A stretch of 64,000 nt of DNA from Aporhodopirellula aestuarii (GTDB lineage: Bacteria > Planctomycetota > Planctomycetia > Pirellulales > Pirellulaceae), in assembly GCF_023701485.1 (NCBI RefSeq), contig NZ_JAMQBK010000062.1, positions 1 to 64,000 of the forward strand, in the 5' to 3' direction. Each line of letters starts with the position of its first letter. Positions within the stretch are counted from its first letter, which is position 1. Positions 36,663-50,715 of the stretch are shown here, in pieces. The translations under genes were made by a program, and so were the position numbers. A model generated the notes under the pieces. It had not been told where the DNA came from. It did not search any database and saw only the letters and a list, made by a program, of their open reading frames with translations.

Positions 36663-39293
36663 CTACAAATCCAGCCGGGAATTGCCCGTCATGACGAATG
36701 CGGCCCAGAAGAACGGGTGCGCGGCACCGTAACGTTCGCGACGCGCAGCAATTAGCCGTTGCTGTGTCGTCTGTAAGGACGAGGCAACGTCTTTGGACTC
36801 GGCGAGTGAATCGAAGAAGCCTTGCATCAGCAACATGGTGTCGCGATCAGGGATTTCCCACAACGACGACAAAACGGATCTCGCCCCGGCGATGTGGAAC
36901 GCGCGACGTAGGCCCACCACGCCCCCGGTTGCCTCCAGTTCTCCCAGGCCCGTTTGGCAAGCACTTAGAACCGCCAATCGCGTGCCCGATAGGTCGGTCC
37001 CAGCGATTTCCAACCCGGTCAACACGCCATCATTCTGCAGACTCGCGATGGACTCGTTCCCGTTCGCACCCGCCATTAACAGCCCGCACTTGAGAAGCGG
37101 ATTGGTTCCGTCGTCAGTGGAACCGAATGTGAATCCGTGGGTGCTGACGACGATCACTGATGGGCTGGTTAGTTCCTTGAACTTGGACTCCAAGGCAGCG
37201 TCCTGCATCATCGTCTTCGGTTCGTTACCTGTGATCCGCGAAATCGCGGGAGAGATCATTTCAGCTTCAACGGCGGAGAACGCTAGTCGACCGACGGATC
37301 GTAATTTGATTGGTTCGCCGTCGGCAGACTTTAGCTTGTCCGCCGACCGTAGTTGATCGGGCGATGTCGATTCAAGTTCGACGTCGAAATTGGGATCGGC
37401 AAAAATCACGCCAGGCTTGTTCGACGCGGTGACATCGGATTGAATCAAATCACGACCGCTGAGCTGCAATTGAATCGAATGGGTTTCGGCGACGAATGTC
37501 TCGCCGTCCGGATTCAATAAAGCGGACCAGGGCAATAGCCATAGGCTTTGGTCTGGCGAGATCAGGACGTCTGGCTTTCTATCGCAGGCTTTCAAAATCG
37601 GATGCCATATCAAGCGACTGGCTGCAGTCAGTTGCGGTATCAGTTGCTGGTAGGCGGTTTGCTCGCCGTGTTGTCGGATTTGTGCGACCGACTCGCCGAT
37701 GCCGTGCGTGAGATCCTTGACCGCATTGTCGATGGGCTCGGCGGGACCAAGGTCAATGAACCGAGCATTGCCGGTGTTCGTCAAAATCCACGCAGCGTAA
37801 CGCTGGCCGGTCGATGACGGAGTCGCGTCCGCGTCAAACTCAAAATCAAGGTACGACAGGACATCGACAAAAACCTCGTTGTCGGAGAGCGTGCCGCGAA
37901 TATCGTCGCACGTTACCCAGGGTTGGCTGGCCCAAGCTTCTCGTTTCTTCAGGTCTAGTGTCGCGCCACCTTGAACCGATTGAGCTTCTTCGACCAACCC
38001 TTTTCCATTGATCAGCCATTCCGCCGACATATCGGAAACCTGCGGGACGTGGGCAAAGTCAACGGCGAGCGAAATCGACGAGAAAAATGTGTAACTGTCC
38101 GCTTGGGCGAGGTGCTCGCGTTGTTCGAGAGCGTTCATGCCCCACAATTCTTTGCGGATCGTGGTCCTCAATTGCCGCAGCCGACTGTCGACCATGGCAA
38201 ACGCTTGCTGGGTTTGGCCGGCTTGCAGATGACTTGCTAAGAGCAAGCGTTGTTGGGATCGGATGTATGGCACCAGGTTAGGGAATTTCTTTTCCAACTC
38301 AGCGATCGACCGACCGAATGCTTCCATGGACTCGGAGTCATTGGAATTCAATTTCGCGGACGTGAGTCGCAGACGCTGTAGAGCGATCGTTTCGGATTGA
38401 TCCGGATGATGTTTTTCCAGATTCGTGACGACCGCTTCGTAGATCGAGACCGCTTCTTTTTTGCGGTCAAGCGATACGAGCTGTTGTGCGATCTTTGCGT
38501 TCGTCTTGAGCGTCATGAGATGGGTATCGCCGTAGCTCTTACGGAACACCCGGTGTGCCGTTTGATAAATCTTGAGTGCATCTTCGTATTCTTGGATTTG
38601 TTCCATTGCGTGGGCAAGGGGCAATGTCGCGCTGATCGCGTCGGGGTGTTCTGCGCCTAACGCATCCCGATTGATATTCCAAGCTTGGCGAGCGAATTGG
38701 ATCGCCTTCTTGAGCTCGTGTCGATGGTTTGAAAGGTTGGCCAGGTCGATGCAGATCTCCGCCGTTTGAGTCGCCGCCTTGCCATATAGCCTGCTGTGAA
38801 CATCGAGTGCATCGTTGAGCAGTGTTTCCGCTTGGGCATACGCTCCCGCGTTGGCGGCGACGATGCCCGCGTATTGAACCGCGGTGGCCGCATGGGGGTG
38901 TTTGTCATCCCAAAAGCTGCGTAGCTTGCGAGTGCAATCCAAAGTCAATTGAAGTTGATCTGTCGTTGCAGACCGTGCATTGACGAACTCTTCGATTTGC
39001 GACATCTGCTGCCAAAGGCCGGCCTCCTCGGCGAGTTGAGCTTTGGTGAGGGTTTTCTGTTCTGCTTTGGACTTAGCGATCCAAAATCGCGAAAGTGATT
39101 TTGGTTCAACCGCAAGCAGCCATTCGTCTCGAACTTCCAACGCGTAGAACTCGGTGTCTCGCTTGATGTCGGCGACGCGCGTGGGCCCGTCCATGAAACC
39201 AGCGTCATCGTTCGTCACAACATACACCTGAGCCGACACATTGATCGACAAGAAGATTCCCACAAGGATGATGATTGATCGAACGGTGCTCAT
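36663..39293 (-). CDS. exported SH3-like/TPR protein with CHAT protease domain
   Basis: 876 residues. Signal peptide MSTVRSIIILVGIFLSINVSAQ, then a bacterial SH3-like domain (~23-75: GPTRVADIKRDTEFYALEVRD), tetratricopeptide repeats (~100-380), a helical linker, and a C-terminal CHAT domain. His719 lies in VVSTHGF and Cys779 in VLSACQTGLG, so the catalytic dyad is intact; the final FFWAAFVMTG is the usual CHAT ending. It is a shorter paralogue-type relative of the protein at 7509-11549, which has no SH3-like domain. The caspase-fold partner is missing here; the neighbour upstream is a GH29 fucosidase gene, 135 bp away on the same strand. Probable periplasmic protease or scaffold; substrates unknown. 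Confidence 0.88.
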   Translation of the reverse strand: MSTVRSIIILVGIFLSINVSAQVYVVTNDDAGFMDGPTRVADIKRDTEFYALEVRDEWLLAVEPKSLSRFWIAKSKAEQKTLTKAQLAEEAGLWQQMSQIEEFVNARSATTDQLQLTLDCTRKLRSFWDDKHPHAATAVQYAGIVAANAGAYAQAETLLNDALDVHSRLYGKAATQTAEICIDLANLSNHRHELKKAIQFARQAWNINRDALGAEHPDAISATLPLAHAMEQIQEYEDALKIYQTAHRVFRKSYGDTHLMTLKTNAKIAQQLVSLDRKKEAVSIYEAVVTNLEKHHPDQSETIALQRLRLTSAKLNSNDSESMEAFGRSIAELEKKFPNLVPYIRSQQRLLLASHLQAGQTQQAFAMVDSRLRQLRTTIRKELWGMNALEQREHLAQADSYTFFSSISLAVDFAHVPQVSDMSAEWLINGKGLVEEAQSVQGGATLDLKKREAWASQPWVTCDDIRGTLSDNEVFVDVLSYLDFEFDADATPSSTGQRYAAWILTNTGNARFIDLGPAEPIDNAVKDLTHGIGESVAQIRQHGEQTAYQQLIPQLTAASRLIWHPILKACDRKPDVLISPDQSLWLLPWSALLNPDGETFVAETHSIQLQLSGRDLIQSDVTASNKPGVIFADPNFDVELESTSPDQLRSADKLKSADGEPIKLRSVGRLAFSAVEAEMISPAISRITGNEPKTMMQDAALESKFKELTSPSVIVVSTHGFTFGSTDDGTNPLLKCGLLMAGANGNESIASLQNDGVLTGLEIAGTDLSGTRLAVLSACQTGLGELEATGGVVGLRRAFHIAGARSVLSSLWEIPDRDTMLLMQGFFDSLAESKDVASSLQTTQQRLIAARRERYGAAHPFFWAAFVMTGNSRLDL

Positions 39294-41404: not shown

Positions 41405-44400
41405 TCACTCGCGGCGACCGATCGACTCCCGATCGTTTGCGGGTGATCCGTTCGACGCTGCTTCTGAGGCGAAATCGCTGCGATGTCGATCGATCAATGA
41501 AGCCACCATTTCGGTCAGCTTGGGACCGTTGATGGGTTTGGGGAAATATTCGTCGCACCCCATCTCGATGCAGGATTCTCGTTCGCCTTCCATTGCGTCG
41601 GCAGTAATCGCGATGATCGGAAGAGTGAAGCCTTCTTGTCGCAATGTCGCGACGGCCTCTCTGCCATCCATGATTGGCATTTGCATGTCCATCAGGACTA
41701 GCGAAAACGGGCGGCCGTTTTTTTCTGCGTCGCGAACCGCTTCCACGGCCTGTTGCCCGTTTTCAGCGATCGTGACTTCCGCACCGCATCGTTCGAGAAA
41801 AAATTTGCCGATTCGCCAGATGTCGCGGCGGTCGTCGGCCAGCAAGACACGTGACTCGATCCGTGGGTAGTTTGCCGCACTGTTGTCCGCGTCTTTTGTC
41901 TTGCCACTTCGAAGATTTGTCACGTCGATCGTTGAGCCGGCTTCCGCATCCGATAGCGGCAATGACAAAGTGAATCGGCTGCCACGACCGATCTCGCTTT
42001 CGGCATGGATTGTTCCACCCATGCCTTCGGCGAGACGCTTGGAGATGCTTAAGCCAAGGCCGGTGCCACCGAATTGCCGGGTTGTTTGTTTGCTGGCCTG
42101 ACTAAACGGAACGAACAGGCGTTTCATCTGATTCGGCGTGATTCCGATTCCGGTGTCACTGATGGATATCTCGAGCCGAGAATGTTCGTCATCGTTAACC
42201 AAATCGGTTTGTACGACGACTTCACCTTCCGGTGTGAACTTAATCGCATTACGAATGAGGTTCACCAAAATCTGGCGAATCCGAACTTCATCACCCATGA
42301 TTTGCGAGGGCAACCGGGCGGCGTATCGAAATCGCAAGGTTACGTTATCTTGTTCGGTTCGAGGCTGCATCAGTCGTTCGACTTCACGAACAACGCGGAG
42401 AATGTCCAGCGGTTGCTTTTCGAATTTTAATTTTCCGGCTTCGATCCGTGATAAATCCAAAATGTCGTTTAGCAGAGAGAGTAGGTACGAGCCGTTTCGC
42501 TTGATGATGTCGACCTTCTCCAGGAAATCGGGATGATCCGATTCACTTCGGAGCATGTCCGCGAATCCCAGTACGGCGGTCATGGGGGTCCGCAGTTCAT
42601 GCGACATTGTTGCCAAGAATGCGTTCTTCGCTTCGTTCGCTCGTTGGCTGGCTTCGTTTGCTTCCTTCAACGCTTCTTGCGCGAGGATCTGGTTTGTGAT
42701 GTCGTGTTGAACGCCGACGAAGTTGCACACTTTCCCGTCCGATCCGTAAACGGGGGCGATCTGTAGATCGTTCCAAAACGATTTACCATCTTTTCGATAG
42801 TTTAAAATCGCAACTCGAACGGGTTGACCACGGTCGAGGCCATCTCGAATCCTCCGAATCGTTTCGGTGTCGGTCTCGGGGCCTTGCAGGAACTTGCAGT
42901 TGCGTCCGATGACTTCATCCAGTTCATAGCCGGTCAGGGTTAAGAAACCCCGGTTTGCGTACGTGATCGGATTTCCTTCGACGCGTGGATCGGTGATGAT
43001 GATACCGTTGACCGCCGACTCGATGGCAAGCTGTTGAAGCCGGATCTCTTTTTCCGCGGCAGCAAGTGTTGCAATATCAACTAAGGTGAGAACAACCCCT
43101 CGCGTCTCATCGCTGCTCTGATAAGGCAGCATCCGCACCAAGTACGGTGTGTCATTACTGTCACGAACTGTTACCTCCCTTTCGGACTGTGATTGCATCA
43201 CCTGGCGCAGTTCATCCAACAACTCCGGGTGATTTAGCATGTGGGCGATCTTTTCCATCGAACGACCCATGTCGTGTTCGTCCAGATCGAAGACACGAGC
43301 GATTTCTGGTGTGAACCGGCGAATGTAGAGTCCGTCGTCCAAGAAGATCACGCCGACGCGGGTCGTTGCCAATAGGTTGTCCATGTCGTCGTTGGCCAGG
43401 GCCAGTTCTTCAACGCGACGTTGGTGTTCCGCGTTGACCGTGTAAAGTTCCTCGTTGACGCTGTGTAATTCTTCGTTGGTGCTTTGCAATTCCTCATTGC
43501 TTGCGACCAATTCTTCATTAGTGGCCTGCAATTCTTCATTGGAGGTTTCCATTTCCTCGATCGTCGCCTGCAGGTTTTCTTGCGAAAACCGCAGTTCGGA
43601 TTCAAGCAAATGCATACGTGCGTGTTCGGCTCGATCATCCGACTGGCTCTTTGACGACTCGATCAGAATTGGCAACTGCTCGAATTCCACTAGCACTTCA
43701 CATGGTTCATTGCTGGTGGAGGCAAGAGGCTGTACTGATATCCGCAGCATTTCCTCTTGTTGTTGGCTTCGGCACTGCGTTGCCGCGTATTGAACCGTCT
43801 CACGTTTGGCCAACGCATGATGCCAAGCGGTCGAGATCGAATTTTTTAGCGATTCGTCAATCATTTCGAGTAGATGATTGGATGGCCTGCCGCCGCGTTG
43901 GCGGAGATACTTTTCGGCACCGCCGAAGATGTGCAACATGTCGCCGCTTTCGCTGACGAGGATGCTGCACCCCATCTTTTTCGCCAGTAACCGGTCGTAC
44001 GTTTTGATCAGGTCGGCAGTCACTCGGTTACTTTTAGCCGGAGCGATGGTGGTCGGCGAATACGGCATCGTTTCTAAGCGTCGTCCTATCGGTACTCGTG
44101 ACCCAAGTGGCAAGCGTACGTCGCGTCGTTTCTTGAAAATGCGCCAACGTTTGTTGATCGGTTGAAATTCGTCACTCAGCTCGCCTGGGGATTCACTGGG
44201 ACCAAGAAACAGAACCCCATTGCCGTTCAACGCAAAATGAAACAGAGACAGGACTTTTCTCTGAGCCGTCGGTTGCAGATAGATCAGCATGTTGCGGCAA
44301 CTCACGAGGTCCATCTGGGTGAACGGCGCGTCGTTGATCAGATTCTGCGGTGCGAAAACGATCTTGTTGCGGAGGTAACGCTGAACTTGGTAGCCATCAC

Positions 44401-45568
44401 GTGTGCGAGTGAAATACCGATCGCGTCGCGATGGCGTCACTTCGCTTAACGCTTCTTCGCTGTAGACGCCCTTGCCCGCAATTTGAAGTGAGCCTTTGTG
44501 TTCGTCGGTTGCAAAGATTTTGAAATCTAAATCGGAAGCGAGTTTTTGAATCTCTTCATCAATCAAGATGGCGAGCGAGTAGGCTTCCTCGCCGGTCGCG
44601 CAGGCTGCAACCCAAACTCGCAGCGGCTCGCCGTTATTTCTTGCGCCGATCAGTTTTTCGATCGCTTGGGTGCGCAGTGATTCGAATGCATCTCGATCGC
44701 GGAAGAATTTGGTGACGCCGATCAGAAGATCTTTGTAGAGTTCATCCTGTTCGTGTTCGTCGTTTGTCAAACGCGACAAATAGTCTTCCAATTCTCTCAG
44801 CCCCAACAGCTGCATTCGACGGTTGATGCGGCGTCCGACGGTGCTCGACTTGTACTGGGAAAAATCCAGCGTGGTGCGGCGATGCAGGAGATGTAGAATT
44901 TTTGCTTCGACCTCCATGTTTCCAAATGCGAGGTCTTCTTCGGCCAGTTTCTCGCGGCTGATGCCTTCTTGGGTGTAGCGAACGAGCGCTTCGGCGATGG
45001 CGATCGGCGGCAAAACAACGTGCACCATTCCTGTTTCGCGGGCGCTGCCAGGCATCCCATAGAATTTGGCCGATACGTCGTCTTGGGCGATAACCAAGCC
45101 GCCGGCCTCGTGAATGTCGCGAACGCCGCGTGCGCCATCGTTGCCGGTGCCCGACAGGACCACACCGACGGCATAGCGTCCGACGTCGGTGGCCAGGGAG
45201 CGGAAAAACTGGTCTACCGGATGGACCATCGTCCGGTCCGAACTGCGCTCAGTCAACAGCAGCTTGCCCTCGTTGATCACCATCTCCATCTTGGCAGGAA
45301 TGAGATAGATATGGTTTGGCCGGACACGCTGCCCATTTTCAACGCGATGGACCGGAATACTGGTCTGTCGTGCCAGCAATTCTTCCATGTGGCTTTTGAA
45401 ATCTGGCGACAAGTGCTGAATAACGACAAATGCCATCCCGCTGTCCGCCGGAATGGCTCGAAAAAATGCCTCAAGTGCTTCGAGACCTCCCGCGGAGGCA
45501 CCGACGCCGACGATGTGGAACTCATCGCAAACTTCCGTGTCCGTCTGCGCTGTATCGAAATCGTCCAT
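41405..45568 (-). CDS. CheB-CheR-PAS-LOV hybrid histidine kinase with receiver
   Basis: 1387 residues, no signal peptide or TM helix, so cytoplasmic. Order: CheB methylesterase (~16-200) with intact triad Ser25 in GVGASAGG, His52 in QHLSP and Asp144 in GTGNDG; CheR methyltransferase (~212-480; VWVAACATGEEAYSLAI for SAM binding, LVSCRNMLIYL); a Glu/Asn-rich coiled coil (~655-735) built of NEELQ-type heptads; a PAS domain (~735-835); a LOV domain (~842-960) with GRNCKFLQG (reactive Cys891) and NYRKDGKSFWNDL; HisKA with His990 in MSHELRTP; HATPase (NAIKF, SDTGIGI, GGTGLGLSI); receiver with Asp1294 in LMDMQMP. The LOV signature predicts FMN binding and blue-light sensing. It is divergent to a paralogue at 46207. 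Targets of CheB/CheR are unknown, as no MCP gene is near. Confidence 0.92.
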   Translation of the reverse strand: MDDFDTAQTDTEVCDEFHIVGVGASAGGLEALEAFFRAIPADSGMAFVVIQHLSPDFKSHMEELLARQTSIPVHRVENGQRVRPNHIYLIPAKMEMVINEGKLLLTERSSDRTMVHPVDQFFRSLATDVGRYAVGVVLSGTGNDGARGVRDIHEAGGLVIAQDDVSAKFYGMPGSARETGMVHVVLPPIAIAEALVRYTQEGISREKLAEEDLAFGNMEVEAKILHLLHRRTTLDFSQYKSSTVGRRINRRMQLLGLRELEDYLSRLTNDEHEQDELYKDLLIGVTKFFRDRDAFESLRTQAIEKLIGARNNGEPLRVWVAACATGEEAYSLAILIDEEIQKLASDLDFKIFATDEHKGSLQIAGKGVYSEEALSEVTPSRRDRYFTRTRDGYQVQRYLRNKIVFAPQNLINDAPFTQMDLVSCRNMLIYLQPTAQRKVLSLFHFALNGNGVLFLGPSESPGELSDEFQPINKRWRIFKKRRDVRLPLGSRVPIGRRLETMPYSPTTIAPAKSNRVTADLIKTYDRLLAKKMGCSILVSESGDMLHIFGGAEKYLRQRGGRPSNHLLEMIDESLKNSISTAWHHALAKRETVQYAATQCRSQQQEEMLRISVQPLASTSNEPCEVLVEFEQLPILIESSKSQSDDRAEHARMHLLESELRFSQENLQATIEEMETSNEELQATNEELVASNEELQSTNEELHSVNEELYTVNAEHQRRVEELALANDDMDNLLATTRVGVIFLDDGLYIRRFTPEIARVFDLDEHDMGRSMEKIAHMLNHPELLDELRQVMQSQSEREVTVRDSNDTPYLVRMLPYQSSDETRGVVLTLVDIATLAAAEKEIRLQQLAIESAVNGIIITDPRVEGNPITYANRGFLTLTGYELDEVIGRNCKFLQGPETDTETIRRIRDGLDRGQPVRVAILNYRKDGKSFWNDLQIAPVYGSDGKVCNFVGVQHDITNQILAQEALKEANEASQRANEAKNAFLATMSHELRTPMTAVLGFADMLRSESDHPDFLEKVDIIKRNGSYLLSLLNDILDLSRIEAGKLKFEKQPLDILRVVREVERLMQPRTEQDNVTLRFRYAARLPSQIMGDEVRIRQILVNLIRNAIKFTPEGEVVVQTDLVNDDEHSRLEISISDTGIGITPNQMKRLFVPFSQASKQTTRQFGGTGLGLSISKRLAEGMGGTIHAESEIGRGSRFTLSLPLSDAEAGSTIDVTNLRSGKTKDADNSAANYPRIESRVLLADDRRDIWRIGKFFLERCGAEVTIAENGQQAVEAVRDAEKNGRPFSLVLMDMQMPIMDGREAVATLRQEGFTLPIIAITADAMEGERESCIEMGCDEYFPKPINGPKLTEMVASLIDRHRSDFASEAASNGSPANDRESIGRRE

Positions 45569-46206: not shown

Positions 46207-49200
46207 ATGAAGCATGCCACCGCTAAGGAACCTGAACATCGGAAAACGCTGCTGGTTGTCGGGGTTGGTTTCGGAATTGAAAGTTGGGACCTGGTGGCGC
46301 GAGTTGTCAATGAGTACTCCGCAAACCGGAGTGATGACACCGCCGCTGGCGAAACGGAGTATGGCGAGTGCGATCCCCATGCGGCGGTTGCGACCGTCCT
46401 CTCGCTCGCGGTAACGCCAAACGGATCGGAAGGCTGCGATGATAACGAGCAAGCGTGGAGCCGAGAGTCCAAAATTGAAAACTTGACGGTCGTTCATCGA
46501 AATGAGTCAGTCGACCTTCAGCCAGGCGGCGTCTACATCGCAGAAGCTGGACGAGCGTTACAAGTTCGAGACGGAAGCCTTGTTGCAGTGGAGCTTCCCG
46601 CCGACAAGCAAAACGCTCCGATCGATCACTTATTCGGCAGCTTGGCTGATCAGGTTGGAGAATTAGCCGTCGGCGTGATCCTTTCGGGTGGAGGTACGGA
46701 CGGCACCCAGGGGCTGCGTAGTATCAGCGACGCGGGTGGCATGACGATTGCTCAGCGGGTCGACAGTGCCAGTAACCGTTCGATGCCGCAAGCCGCTTCC
46801 GCGTTGGGCGTTGTCGATCATGTTCTTTCGCCGGATCAGATCGCTGACGAGATTCGAATACATACCCAACACATGCATGAGACCGATGAACGCGACGATG
46901 TCAGTGATCTCAATCGGAAGATCATTGTGGCCATCCCCCAGATCGCCTCGGCGGTCGAAAAGCACACTCAGAACGATTTCAAACACTACAAGACGACGAC
47001 GCTGGCAAGGCGGATTCGGCGGCGGATTCACGTCTTGAAATTGCCCAGCGTTGACGCTTATGTCGAATTGTTGCAAGCGTCACGGGATGAGACGCTGCAG
47101 CTATTCCGAGATCTGTTGATCAGCGTCACGGCTTTCTTTCGAGATCCGAGAGCGTTCGATTCGCTGGCCAGTATGGTGTTGGAGCCGTTGGTGGATCAGC
47201 ACCAGAGCGATTCTCCGATTCGCGTTTGGGTGCCCGGATGTGCAACGGGACAGGAAGCTTATTCGATTGCGATCCTGATGGCCGAAGTCATTGAGAAATC
47301 CGGTCGCGACGTTACTTTTCAGATCTTTGCGACCGATTTGGACGAGCGGGCGCTCTCGATCGCCCGTGCCGGGGGCTATCCGATCGGTATCCAAGATGAA
47401 GTGTCGCCGGAACGGTTGTCGAAGTTCTTTACCAAACGCGGTAACCGCTACTTTGTCAATAAAAAGCTCCGCGATACGATCGTATTCTCGGCTCACAATC
47501 TGATCAGCGACCCGCCGTTTACGAAGCTTGATCTGGTCTCTTGCCGAAACCTGTTGATTTATTTAGGTAGCCATCTTCAGAAGAAATTAATTCCGCTGTT
47601 CCACTACGCGACCAAGCCGGGTGGATTCCTGTTTCTGGGGCCGGCCGAATCGCTGTCGGTTAACCGAGAGTTGTTCCGGACGTTGGATCAAAAACATCGC
47701 TTGTTTCAACGCCGTGTCACGGCAATCGATCCCGCCGCCACCGTGGATCTGCCGCGGGTGAACCTCAGTCGCTTTTCTCGTTCGGTGGAAGACGACGCTG
47801 GTGAGTTCGATTTGTTTCGATACGCTCAGCAGATCGTCTTGGGAGAGTTCTCTCCACAATGGGCGGTTGTGGATGACGACGGTGAGATCCAGACGTTATC
47901 GTCAGATCCATCACCGTTTTTGCAGATGACATCCGGAAAGTTCCAAAACAACATCATCGCAATGGCGCATGACAACGTGCGGATTGGGCTGCGTGCGGCG
48001 TTTGCAGATGCCAAACGCCATCGCCGCCGCGCCTTAGCCGAAGACATGTCGATCCCGGTCGATGGCGGAATCCAACGGGTGCACATCACCGTTCAGCCGA
48101 TGCCGCAGATGGGTGAAGAGGCGAGCTTGCATCTTGTTGCCTTTCACCGCATCGGAACACCGCTGGAAGTCAATGGCGATCAGCAGATCGAGTCCAATGG
48201 TAATGTGGCCCGGGCGGACGACCGAACGGTTGGGAAGGTGATTGAACAGCTAGAGTTGGAGCTTTCACGTACCCGCAATGCCCTCGAGCGGACGGTCCAG
48301 GAACTTGAGACCTCGAACGAAGAGCTGAAATCGTCAAACGAAGAACTGCTCTCGATGAATGAGGAATTGCAGTCGGCTAATGAGGAATTGGAAGCGTCGA
48401 AGGAAGAATTGCAGGCGGCCAACGAGACGTTGATTCGCGCCAACAACGACACCGCGAACCTCTTGCGCAGCACTCAAATCGCAACGATTTTTCTGGACAA
48501 GGATCTGCGAATTCGCGGGTTCACCCCCGCCGCGACCAAAATCTACAGCTTGGTCGAGAGTGATGTGGGGCGCCAGTTAACGAAGTTCGCATCCGAGATC
48601 GAGGACATGCCGCCGTTGCCGGACGTCGCAAACCTCGGCGACGACCAGGTGAAGGAGCAGTTGGTCGGGTCGGTCAATGGACGGACCTACCTTCGACGCG
48701 TTATCCCCTACCGGTCTACCGAAGGAGAAAATGACGGCATCGTTGTGACGTTTAGCGACGTCACCGAGATTAGCGAAAGTGAAAGCCTGATTCGCACGAT
48801 TGCCGAAAACTCGACTAACGCGTTGATCATGATGAACGATCACGGGTATTTAACTTATTGCAATCAAGCGATGCTGGACATGTTTGGTTTCAGCGCCGAG
48901 GAGCTTCGTCAAAAACCGCTGCACGACATCATCCACCATCACTACCCCGATGGCCGTCCATATCCAATGTCACAATGTCCGATTGATCGGGCGTTGCCGG
49001 AAGATTTCAGTGTTCGCGCGCACGAAGATTTGTTCTTCCGCAAGGACGGTAGCACCGTGCCGGTGCTCTGTGCAGCCAGTCCGATTTTTAAGAACGGAAA
49101 ACCGGTGTCAACGGTTATCGAAGTTCGTGACATCACCAAACAGAAGAACGACGAGGAAGAACTGCGCAGCCGCGAAGCTCATTTGCGCCGCATTCTCGAC

Positions 49201-50715
49201 GGAACACTTTGTTTCGTCGGGGTTTTGGATCTGGAAGGGCGTTTGGTCGAAGCCAACGATCCGGCGTTGAGGTCGGCCGGGGTGACTCGCGAGGAGGTCA
49301 TCGGCTTGCCGTTTGCCGAAACGGTTTGGTGGAATTTTGATGACCGCGTCAAGCAACAGGTCAATGACGCGATCGCGCTGGTCGCGTCGGGTGGTTCGTT
49401 TCGAGAAGATCTTCGGTATCAGGTCGCGGGCAAAATAGAACGCTGGGTCGATTTCAGTTTGAATCCGGTTTTTGACCATGACGGCACAGTCGCTTTTATG
49501 ATTCCCTCAGGTTTTGATATCACAGATCGTTACGAAATCGAGGCGAGGCTGGAACAAGCCCGAGCGGCGGCGGAGGCTGCAAGTGAATCCAAGAGCGCGT
49601 TCCTGGCTAACATGTCGCACGAAATTCGCACGCCGATGACGGCGATCTTGGGATATGCCGACCTGATCGCGGAGAAAGTCGGCGATCAAGAAACGGCTTC
49701 CTACGTCGACACGATTCGCCGAAACGGTGGCTTTCTGTTGGAGATCATCAACGACATCTTGGATCTTTCCAAGATCGAAGCCGGTAAGTTGGATGTCAGC
49801 GAAGAAATCTTTTCGCCGCGTCAGTTGATCGAGGACGTTCAAAGCATCATGGGCGTGCGTGCCAAGGAAGGTGGGATCGAGCTCAGTGTGGAATTCCACA
49901 GCCAAGTGCCTTCGCTGATTATGTCTGACACCAAACGCCTCAAACAAATCCTGATCAACTTGGTTGGCAACGCGATCAAGTTCACGCCCGAGGGGAGCGT
50001 GGACGTTGCGGTCTCGCATTCCGGCGAAATGCTTCGCGTCGAAATTACCGACACGGGCATCGGGATGAGTGAGCAGCATCTTGAAAATTTGTTTCAGCCG
50101 TTCTCGCAAGGTGACGGTAACGTCAACCGAGAATTCGGCGGCACCGGCTTGGGATTGGCAATCAGTCGGCGACTGGCGGAAATTCTGGGTGGTCAAATCA
50201 CCGTGACTAGCGAATTGGGCCGAGGCAGCACATTTACCGTCGACGTCCGGGCTAGGCCGATTGTCGGCCGTGCGGACGCGTCAACTGAGGAATCTCAAGC
50301 GTCGTCCGATAAGACGCTCGATGCCAAATCTGTGCGGCTGGAGTGTGACGTCTTGGTCGTTGATGATCGGCGTGACATACGATTCTTGAGTCGCAGTATC
50401 CTGCAACGAGCGGGCGCGACGGTCGAGGAAGCCGAAGATGGTGAAGTGGCGATCGCGGTTGTTAAGGAACGCCTCGAACGATCACGCCCCTTCGGCTTGA
50501 TCGTTCTCGACATGCAAATGCCGCGACTCGACGGCTATGCCACGGCGAAGATTCTGCGAGAGCTCGGCTATGTCGGCCCCATCATCGCACTGACCGCCGA
50601 TGCCATGCAGGGCGACATGAAGCGATGCTTGGAAGCCGGCTGCAACGACTACCTTAGCAAGCCGATTGATTCGGCGATCTTGCTGAGGAAATCAGGAGAG
50701 CTGTTGAGGGGCTAG
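46207..50715 (+). CDS. CheB(degenerate)-CheR-PAS hybrid histidine kinase with receiver
   Basis: 1502 residues, cytoplasmic. Order: a CheB-like domain (~14-220), CheR methyltransferase (~235-505; VWVPGCATGQEAYSIAI, LVSCRNLLIYL), a coiled coil of NEELKSSNEELLSMNEEL-type heptads (~670-750), three PAS domains (~750-855, 865-978, 988-1108), HisKA with His1138 in NMSHEIRTP, HATPase (NAIKF, TDTGIGM, GGTGLGLAI) and a receiver with Asp1435 in VLDMQMP. In the CheB part, the nucleophile motif GASAGG is replaced by GFGIES and the QHLSP histidine is absent (VLSLAV); only the Asp of GGTDG (Asp165) remains, so esterase activity is very unlikely. The PAS domains lack the LOV cysteine motif. It shares architecture with the divergent neighbour, suggesting duplication and division of labour. 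Confidence 0.92.
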   Translation: MKHATAKEPEHRKTLLVVGVGFGIESWDLVARVVNEYSANRSDDTAAGETEYGECDPHAAVATVLSLAVTPNGSEGCDDNEQAWSRESKIENLTVVHRNESVDLQPGGVYIAEAGRALQVRDGSLVAVELPADKQNAPIDHLFGSLADQVGELAVGVILSGGGTDGTQGLRSISDAGGMTIAQRVDSASNRSMPQAASALGVVDHVLSPDQIADEIRIHTQHMHETDERDDVSDLNRKIIVAIPQIASAVEKHTQNDFKHYKTTTLARRIRRRIHVLKLPSVDAYVELLQASRDETLQLFRDLLISVTAFFRDPRAFDSLASMVLEPLVDQHQSDSPIRVWVPGCATGQEAYSIAILMAEVIEKSGRDVTFQIFATDLDERALSIARAGGYPIGIQDEVSPERLSKFFTKRGNRYFVNKKLRDTIVFSAHNLISDPPFTKLDLVSCRNLLIYLGSHLQKKLIPLFHYATKPGGFLFLGPAESLSVNRELFRTLDQKHRLFQRRVTAIDPAATVDLPRVNLSRFSRSVEDDAGEFDLFRYAQQIVLGEFSPQWAVVDDDGEIQTLSSDPSPFLQMTSGKFQNNIIAMAHDNVRIGLRAAFADAKRHRRRALAEDMSIPVDGGIQRVHITVQPMPQMGEEASLHLVAFHRIGTPLEVNGDQQIESNGNVARADDRTVGKVIEQLELELSRTRNALERTVQELETSNEELKSSNEELLSMNEELQSANEELEASKEELQAANETLIRANNDTANLLRSTQIATIFLDKDLRIRGFTPAATKIYSLVESDVGRQLTKFASEIEDMPPLPDVANLGDDQVKEQLVGSVNGRTYLRRVIPYRSTEGENDGIVVTFSDVTEISESESLIRTIAENSTNALIMMNDHGYLTYCNQAMLDMFGFSAEELRQKPLHDIIHHHYPDGRPYPMSQCPIDRALPEDFSVRAHEDLFFRKDGSTVPVLCAASPIFKNGKPVSTVIEVRDITKQKNDEEELRSREAHLRRILDGTLCFVGVLDLEGRLVEANDPALRSAGVTREEVIGLPFAETVWWNFDDRVKQQVNDAIALVASGGSFREDLRYQVAGKIERWVDFSLNPVFDHDGTVAFMIPSGFDITDRYEIEARLEQARAAAEAASESKSAFLANMSHEIRTPMTAILGYADLIAEKVGDQETASYVDTIRRNGGFLLEIINDILDLSKIEAGKLDVSEEIFSPRQLIEDVQSIMGVRAKEGGIELSVEFHSQVPSLIMSDTKRLKQILINLVGNAIKFTPEGSVDVAVSHSGEMLRVEITDTGIGMSEQHLENLFQPFSQGDGNVNREFGGTGLGLAISRRLAEILGGQITVTSELGRGSTFTVDVRARPIVGRADASTEESQASSDKTLDAKSVRLECDVLVVDDRRDIRFLSRSILQRAGATVEEAEDGEVAIAVVKERLERSRPFGLIVLDMQMPRLDGYATAKILRELGYVGPIIALTADAMQGDMKRCLEAGCNDYLSKPIDSAILLRKSGELLRG

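Follow-up and report, generated by a model that had tools for sequence, protein, structure and literature searches.

Background

Three kinds of described system stand closest to the locus analysed here: the LOV histidine kinases, the CheB-CheR-PAS hybrid histidine kinases and the adaptation machinery of chemoreceptors. In the latter, methylation sites follow the consensus [ASTG]2-x2-[EQ]2-x2-[ASTG]2; for the class of CheB-CheR hybrid kinases, no report of a methyl substrate was found in the literature searched. One survey sorts 1390 LOV proteins from bacteria into classes, with kinases making up roughly half, and a word search of its main text finds neither CheB nor CheR named (PMC4844311). 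In the engineered LOV kinase YF1, control by light depends on the heptad register of the linker (PMC6798134, PMC5431215, PMC11164954), for which 7n and 7n+1 registers have been described (PMC6798134, PMC5431215). Our searches on CheB or CheR combined with LOV domains or photoreceptors, or occurring in fusions, returned, in those parts of the literature that they reached, no description of a CheB-CheR-LOV protein, by which absence from print is not claimed; since public genomes carry such a protein, a database listing of the architecture probably exists.

In this work, we describe a protein of this architecture encoded in the window, i.e. the whole stretch of 64,000 nucleotides that was analysed, from Aporhodopirellula aestuarii (contig NZ_JAMQBK010000062.1, positions 1 to 64,000).

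Results

Architecture of the protein

The 1387-residue protein (Table 1) is confirmed as a genuine LOV domain set within a genuine CheB-CheR hybrid kinase. CheB, CheR_N, CheR, PAS_10, PAS_9, HisKA, HATPase_c and Response_reg each exceed the Pfam gathering score, PAS_9 (residues 855-958) being the label given by Pfam to the LOV region, and the hybrid histidine kinase set is complete, with H990 in HisKA, the HATPase and D1294 in the receiver. Downstream of the kinase gene lies an alpha-L-fucosidase (PF01120, 39429-40862) and, beyond it, a TPR-CHAT protein (36663-39293).

Table 1. Location in the window of the kinase gene, of its domains and of the divergent neighbouring gene
Feature	Position	Strand	Evidence
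LOV CheB-CheR hybrid histidine kinase, 1387 aa	41405..45568	-	ORF; Pfam architecture; six full-length relatives
CheB methylesterase domain, residues 20-195; Ser25, His52, Asp144	44984..45511	-	Pfam E 2e-57; alignment to 1chd, 6ymz
CheR_N all-alpha domain, residues 223-271	44756..44902	-	Pfam
CheR SAM-binding methyltransferase domain, residues 285-476	44141..44716	-	Pfam E 9e-52; best PDB match 5ftw CheR
Probable cryptic PAS-like domain, residues 518-632	43673..44017	-	Predicted alpha/beta order, Pfam without match; inference
Glutamate-pair coiled coil, residues 664-723	43400..43579	-	Column conservation; predicted helix
PAS_10 domain, residues 729-832	43073..43384	-	Pfam E 4.8e-24
LOV domain, residues 843-962	42683..43042	-	Pfam, NCBIfam, PDB phmmer, AlphaFold2, Foldseek
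Adduct cysteine codon, Cys891	42896..42898	-	ORF position; Cys conserved in relatives
HisKA, residues 980-1045, phospho-acceptor His990	42434..42631	-	Pfam; His in 51/51 rows
HATPase_c, residues 1092-1206	41951..42295	-	Pfam
Receiver domain, residues 1241-1355, Asp1294	41504..41848	-	Pfam Response_reg; residue conservation
Divergent CheB-CheR hybrid kinase, 1502 aa: degraded CheB, CheR, EE coil, PAS_10, two PAS, HisKA, HATPase, receiver	46207..50715	+	Pfam

The original prediction had placed a full LOV signature at residues ~842-960, with the photoadduct cysteine Cys891 in a GRNCKFLQG motif, and was right in both respects. The motif starts at residue 888, with the adduct cysteine in a GxNCRFLQ context, save for Lys in place of Arg after the cysteine; a second motif, NYRKDGKSFWNDL, starts at N923, and FVGVQHD, containing Q954, marks the end of the domain. 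The interval first given, 42780-43080, is somewhat displaced: it corresponds to residues ~830-930 and loses the last strand, with the FVGVQHD end and Q954, the whole domain being that listed in Table 1.

The LOV assignment is well beyond what chance would give. Among PDB sequences, phmmer found 9vf7 as the best match (E 1.5e-39), and the further matches include LOV domains of aureochrome, YtvA and phototropin. An AlphaFold2 model, for which 13 LOV sequences were used, reaches a pLDDT of 90.2, and Foldseek superposed it with TM 0.96 and rmsd 0.7 on 9vf7, the LOV domain of Meiothermus ruber Mrub_1259, i.e. on a PAS fold of the LOV type; structure prediction and alignment, the checks proposed at the outset, both support the LOV fold. 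The NCBIfam model for YtvA-family blue-light photoreceptors scores 156.1 bits over residues 848-973, and its whole-protein cut-off of 250 is not reached: the 1387-residue protein is a relative of YtvA_fam, not a member. The pocket residues N890, C891, Q895, N923, N933 and Q954 are all present. N923, N933 and Q954 align with those of the aureochrome LOV domain and, by equivalence to AsLOV2, we take them to be the FMN-contacting Asn/Asn/Gln, so that the lack of pocket residues, named in advance as what would speak against the assignment, was not seen.

A recurrent architecture of the lineage

Related proteins were searched in 241 genomes of the family, own genome included, with the window's LOV domain alone (E <= 1e-28), a procedure that scored a capped number of candidates in each genome, so that its counts are lower bounds, biased to query-like domains. 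At least 73 places in at least 55 genomes were matched, and the surroundings of all 73 were typed by profiles derived from seven orthologues. The combination of LOV with CheB and CheR had been considered unusual; within this lineage it is instead common, being found in a single protein at no less than 47 of the at least 73 places, in at least 44 of the 241 genomes, and in 13 out of 13 genomes of the genus, that of the window included. Pfam agreed with this architecture in all four such proteins submitted. One of the 26 other LOV proteins, L207, starts at a contig end, where a CheB-CheR part may have been lost.

When the same 241 genomes were searched with the full-length protein, six further proteins were found to align with it nearly end to end, over ~1360 residues with 56-70% identity, and to share its architecture. 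Together with the at least 47 family members, they rule out a rare chance fusion or an assembly artefact. Loss of the LOV motif in one relative (L004) was also considered and ruled out, the alignment containing NRNCRFLQS. The position of the LOV domain varies, either lying directly between PAS_10 and HisKA, as here, or leaving space for more domains before or after it. A second CheB-CheR-LOV hybrid kinase, of 1793 residues, is encoded in the same genome (contig C46, L166:2708-8086), with PAS domains separating LOV from HisKA and a LOV-to-His spacing of 279.

Across 392 genomes of the phylum, 17 genomes gave LOV matches, at a total of 18 places; two of these places belong to the window's own genome. 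Ten of the other 16 were inspected: two (G544 and G504, from another family of the same class) have CheB and CheR, and the remaining eight show no CheB-CheR, although one of them (L240) starts at a contig end, where such a part may have been lost. For the last six places, the open frames that hold the match are 410-848 residues long. A cross-phylum scan for CheB-CheR kinases, based on coil patterns, listed at least 80 loci, 76 of the listed ones having a CheR reading frame; a LOV domain in the CheR frame was called in two of the loci listed, from an uncultured Pirellulaceae and from Rhodopirellula europaea, and a profile repeat of the strict-motif scan returned the same loci. The listed scan loci also supplied 34 genomes from other phyla, and a search of these (E <= 1e-25) found nine LOV-like places in six genomes, none within a CheB-CheR frame. 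The search for other CheB-CheR-LOV architectures, suggested with the original prediction, has so returned many in the family and two beyond it, both within the class. Common in the lineage and, in this limited sample, not seen outside the class, the architecture is not a mere curiosity but a recurrent, strictly maintained variant.

A tree was built from 91 LOV segments, its resolution being limited by the few columns available; in it, CheB-CheR LOV domains group together, with 4 label changes compared to 29.9 in shuffles, at least two of them being forced by well supported branches. This fits an origin by one or few acquisitions, followed by descent.

Conservation of the active residues

All six pocket residues are found in 47 of 47 CheB-CheR LOV domains of the family and in 15 of the 26 other LOV matches, a contrast favouring the first group, the search query having been the window's own LOV domain. 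Two other positions vary, which would count against the light reading: the residue after the adduct cysteine, Lys892 here, is R in 43 and K in 4 of the 47, and R908 is replaced in six of them. The adduct cysteine is retained in all 47 and in 22 of the 26 others; the four exceptions (L207, L210, L220 and L221) are LOV-like domains of the same family, without CheB-CheR, where Met, Arg or Ala takes its place, and are possible light-blind flavin sensors. A Cys-less LOV-like domain has been linked to phenazine/redox input (PMC8846402), and the flavin of the protein described here might likewise serve mainly as a sensor of redox state or oxygen, not of light. Redox sensing should not need the adduct cysteine, so that its retention throughout the CheB-CheR group, against its loss in four of the 26 others, makes such a role distinctly improbable.

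Residues of the other domains were scored on 51 rows, taken from the family and from the two CheB-CheR-LOV proteins of another family, and corresponding to 49 distinct proteins, as L067 was taken as L168 and L059 as L217, identical in LOV sequence; L135, having no LOV domain, was excluded from the census. An alignment to the CheB structures 1chd and 6ymz puts S25, H52 and D144 of CheB within the catalytic motifs; these residues presumably form the catalytic triad by equivalence to Salmonella CheB, and are kept in every row. Pfam finds no receiver N-terminal to this CheB, in contrast to chemotaxis CheB: the domain starts at residue 20, and the sole receiver is the C-terminal one. CheR, which aligns to solved CheR structures, 5ftw being the best, consists of CheR_N and a SAM-binding domain with a GxEE-type motif, in which G326, E328, A329, D355, R425 and N426 are kept in 51 out of 51 rows, while T325 and E327 vary. 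In the kinase part, H990 and the receiver residues D1246, D1294 and K1344 are equally invariant, D1245 being changed to Glu in four rows. The variable positions among the key residues tested are just five (K892, R908, T325, E327 and D1245). As the key residues are otherwise invariant across the 51 rows, the chemistries of LOV, CheB, CheR, HisKA and receiver appear to be maintained together. CheB, CheR, HisKA and receiver all look active, as first suggested, judging from their key residues.

CheB decay does occur in proteins of this kind. The 1502-residue product of the divergent gene (L274, Table 1), where no LOV motif was found, matches the CheB profile only from position 48, and the Ser and His motifs are not seen in its alignment; its CheR and EE coil look intact. 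Its CheB thus seems to be a pseudo-esterase next to an intact paralogue. By the same route, CheB and CheR of the 1387-residue protein could have become non-catalytic relics, with a structural or ligand-binding role, in what would simply be a LOV hybrid kinase. The conservation of the CheB triad and of most SAM-site residues in all rows argues against it, as does the identity of CheB between orthologues, 63-82%, exceeded only by that of HisKA for five of the six relatives, and we consider this explanation improbable.

The divergent pairing itself is not a conserved feature, a similar CheB-CheR neighbour being present at only two (G006 and G210) of nine other LOV loci. The CheB motifs of the G006 neighbour are intact; at a further locus, G143, the neighbour resembles the 1502-residue protein only in the kinase end. 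A search between the two genes for canonical promoters or terminators gave 0 promoter-like sites and 2 terminator-like ones, against 1.2 expected, and the idea was set aside.

Link between LOV domain and kinase

The distance between Q954 and His990 is 36 residues in 15 rows, which represent 14 distinct proteins, and a single row has 50 (36+14), i.e. wherever LOV adjoins HisKA, the 36-residue spacing is found in 14 out of 15 distinct proteins. The other 35 rows have spacings of 160-281, among which 279 (18 rows) and 168 (12 rows) prevail, with space for one or two further domains. A fixed spacing of the helix between LOV domain and kinase is what a coiled-coil lever needs. YF1 (4gcz), of known structure, aligns with the protein through both LOV domain and kinase (E 1.5e-54); by a count on this alignment, its corresponding spacing is 38 residues. 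The difference makes the light polarity of YF1 not transferable: being two residues short, the linker is neither 7n nor 7n+1 in the terms of the heptad rule, and prediction of polarity on this basis was dropped. On the strength of the conserved anatomy and of the analogy with LOV kinases, blue light is likely to control the kinase activity of the protein. The fixed-register link of the LOV domain that the sequence offers is to HisKA only, and nothing that would tie it to CheB or CheR was seen. The coupling of light to methyl-ester chemistry, as first suggested, is hypothetical.

A glutamate-pair coil as candidate methylation substrate

Residues 518-632, following CheR, are a probable PAS domain missed by Pfam, as suggested by the alpha/beta order in the model and, weakly, by tandem-PAS proteins among the Foldseek matches, which have low TM. 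A helix of 92 residues is predicted at 644-735, with pLDDT 91-97 over ~656-725 within a model of mean pLDDT 76.3 and pTM 0.34. The coil core contains, within residues 668-711, six heptads of the form [small][small]xEExx, and its Asn and Leu repeat at heptad spacing, a pattern that fits a putative parallel dimer with the Glu pairs turned outward. In 24 sequences, mean column conservation is higher in the coil (0.906) than in PAS_10 (0.625) and in the cryptic-PAS segment (0.485).

The coil follows CheR also in its distribution. Four to six motifs are present in 47 out of 47 CheB-CheR LOV proteins, compared to none in 25 of the 26 other LOV proteins and two in the last. In a sample selected by PAS_10 alone, which comprised 23 places from 59 genomes and in which the own genome accounts for six places, 3-7 motifs precede PAS_10 in 19 out of 19 proteins with CheR, and the coil is found in none of the four without it, where at most one stray match occurs; the association has a Fisher probability of 1.1e-4, overstated since the proteins are related. 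One of the coil-negative proteins, L275, is a kinase from the own genome that has CheB only. On contig C148 (L248:906-7445), the own genome encodes a hybrid kinase of 2180 codons with CheB and PAS_10, where neither a CheR match nor the glutamate-pair coil is found.

The coil being the most conserved of the three segments and occurring, in the PAS_10 sample, only with CheR, it could plausibly be what CheR acts upon. The canonical chemoreceptor consensus has no match in the 1387 residues of the protein, and six if it is shifted by one residue and Val is allowed as well. The neighbour keeps its coil despite a dead-looking CheB, which would count against such a role, and dimerisation or the docking of CheR could by themselves explain why the coil is conserved. 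By analogy with chemoreceptors, the protein's own coil may tentatively be named the best candidate substrate of CheR and CheB, a doubtful assignment on balance.

A serious rival is methyl chemistry on receptors in trans, where CheB and CheR would act on the cell's chemoreceptors, light would reset chemotactic adaptation, and the kinase half would feed a separate pathway. Other substrates do exist in the genome, where three MCPs exceed the Pfam cut-off; it also has a chemotaxis cluster, which is however provided with its own separate CheB and CheR. The best structural match of CheR is 5ftw, which we take to be a CheR needing no receptor pentapeptide, and no WxxF-type tail is found at any of the three MCP ends; on the other hand, the canonical methylation consensus was not found in one of these MCPs, and the CheB-CheR fusion goes together with a conserved coil within the same protein. 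Action in trans is therefore a possibility of some weight, though in our judgement not a probable one. Two of the MCPs, L250 and L251, have one or no canonical consensus site, and no WxxF-type tail.

Discussion

Taken as a whole, the protein may be pictured as a probably dimeric receptor kinase for blue light, which binds a flavin and carries a methylation module. Blue light would lead to a Cys891-FMN adduct in the LOV domain; the LOV pair would then twist the short coiled coil that enters HisKA at the 36-residue spacing, and the twist would alter how His990 is autophosphorylated and how the signal is passed on to Asp1294 in the C-terminal receiver, as anatomy and the literature on LOV kinases suggest. 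CheR would add, and CheB remove, methyl groups setting the sensitivity of the same kinase, with the coil at residues 668-711, between CheR and PAS_10, acting like the methylation helices of chemoreceptors. We thus hypothesize control, by light or by the protein itself, through methylation, and the design hints at a kinase that might tune how strongly it responds to light. In its full form, where methyl esters are written and erased by CheR and CheB on the six glutamate-pair heptads of the protein's own dimeric coil, and a blue-light receptor so sets its own gain, we judge this scheme rather unlikely.

If true, the presence of the coil in every sampled CheR-bearing PAS_10 protein would point to a general, unrecognised form of receptor adaptation, and, were the coil the substrate, methylation-based adaptation would reach beyond chemotaxis receptors. 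Light is an easy and fast input, and the LOV fusion offers a handle on CheB-CheR kinases, with methylation and phosphorylation as readouts. The occurrence in 13 out of 13 genomes suggests that blue-light sensing is common in the genus group to which Rhodopirellula europaea belongs.

Compared with known LOV histidine kinases (Mrub_1259, Brucella LOV-HK, YF1), the protein is alike in the LOV fold, in the adduct cysteine and in the helix directed toward the kinase, with a LOV-to-His spacing of 36 residues here and 38 in YF1. It differs in the additional N-terminal CheB, CheR, probable cryptic PAS, EE coil and PAS_10, and in the C-terminal receiver. With the CheB-CheR-PAS hybrid histidine kinases of many phyla, it shares CheB or CheR, the EE coil and PAS_10 ahead of the kinase; the difference lies in the domain preceding HisKA, here a LOV with its adduct cysteine, as in two of the at least 80 loci listed. 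The same two enzymes that serve in chemoreceptor adaptation (MCP, CheR, CheB) are found here, as is a helix rich in Glu-Glu pairs near small residues. The canonical consensus is lacking, in contrast, and CheB has no receiver of its own, while enzymes and possible substrate are joined in one polypeptide.
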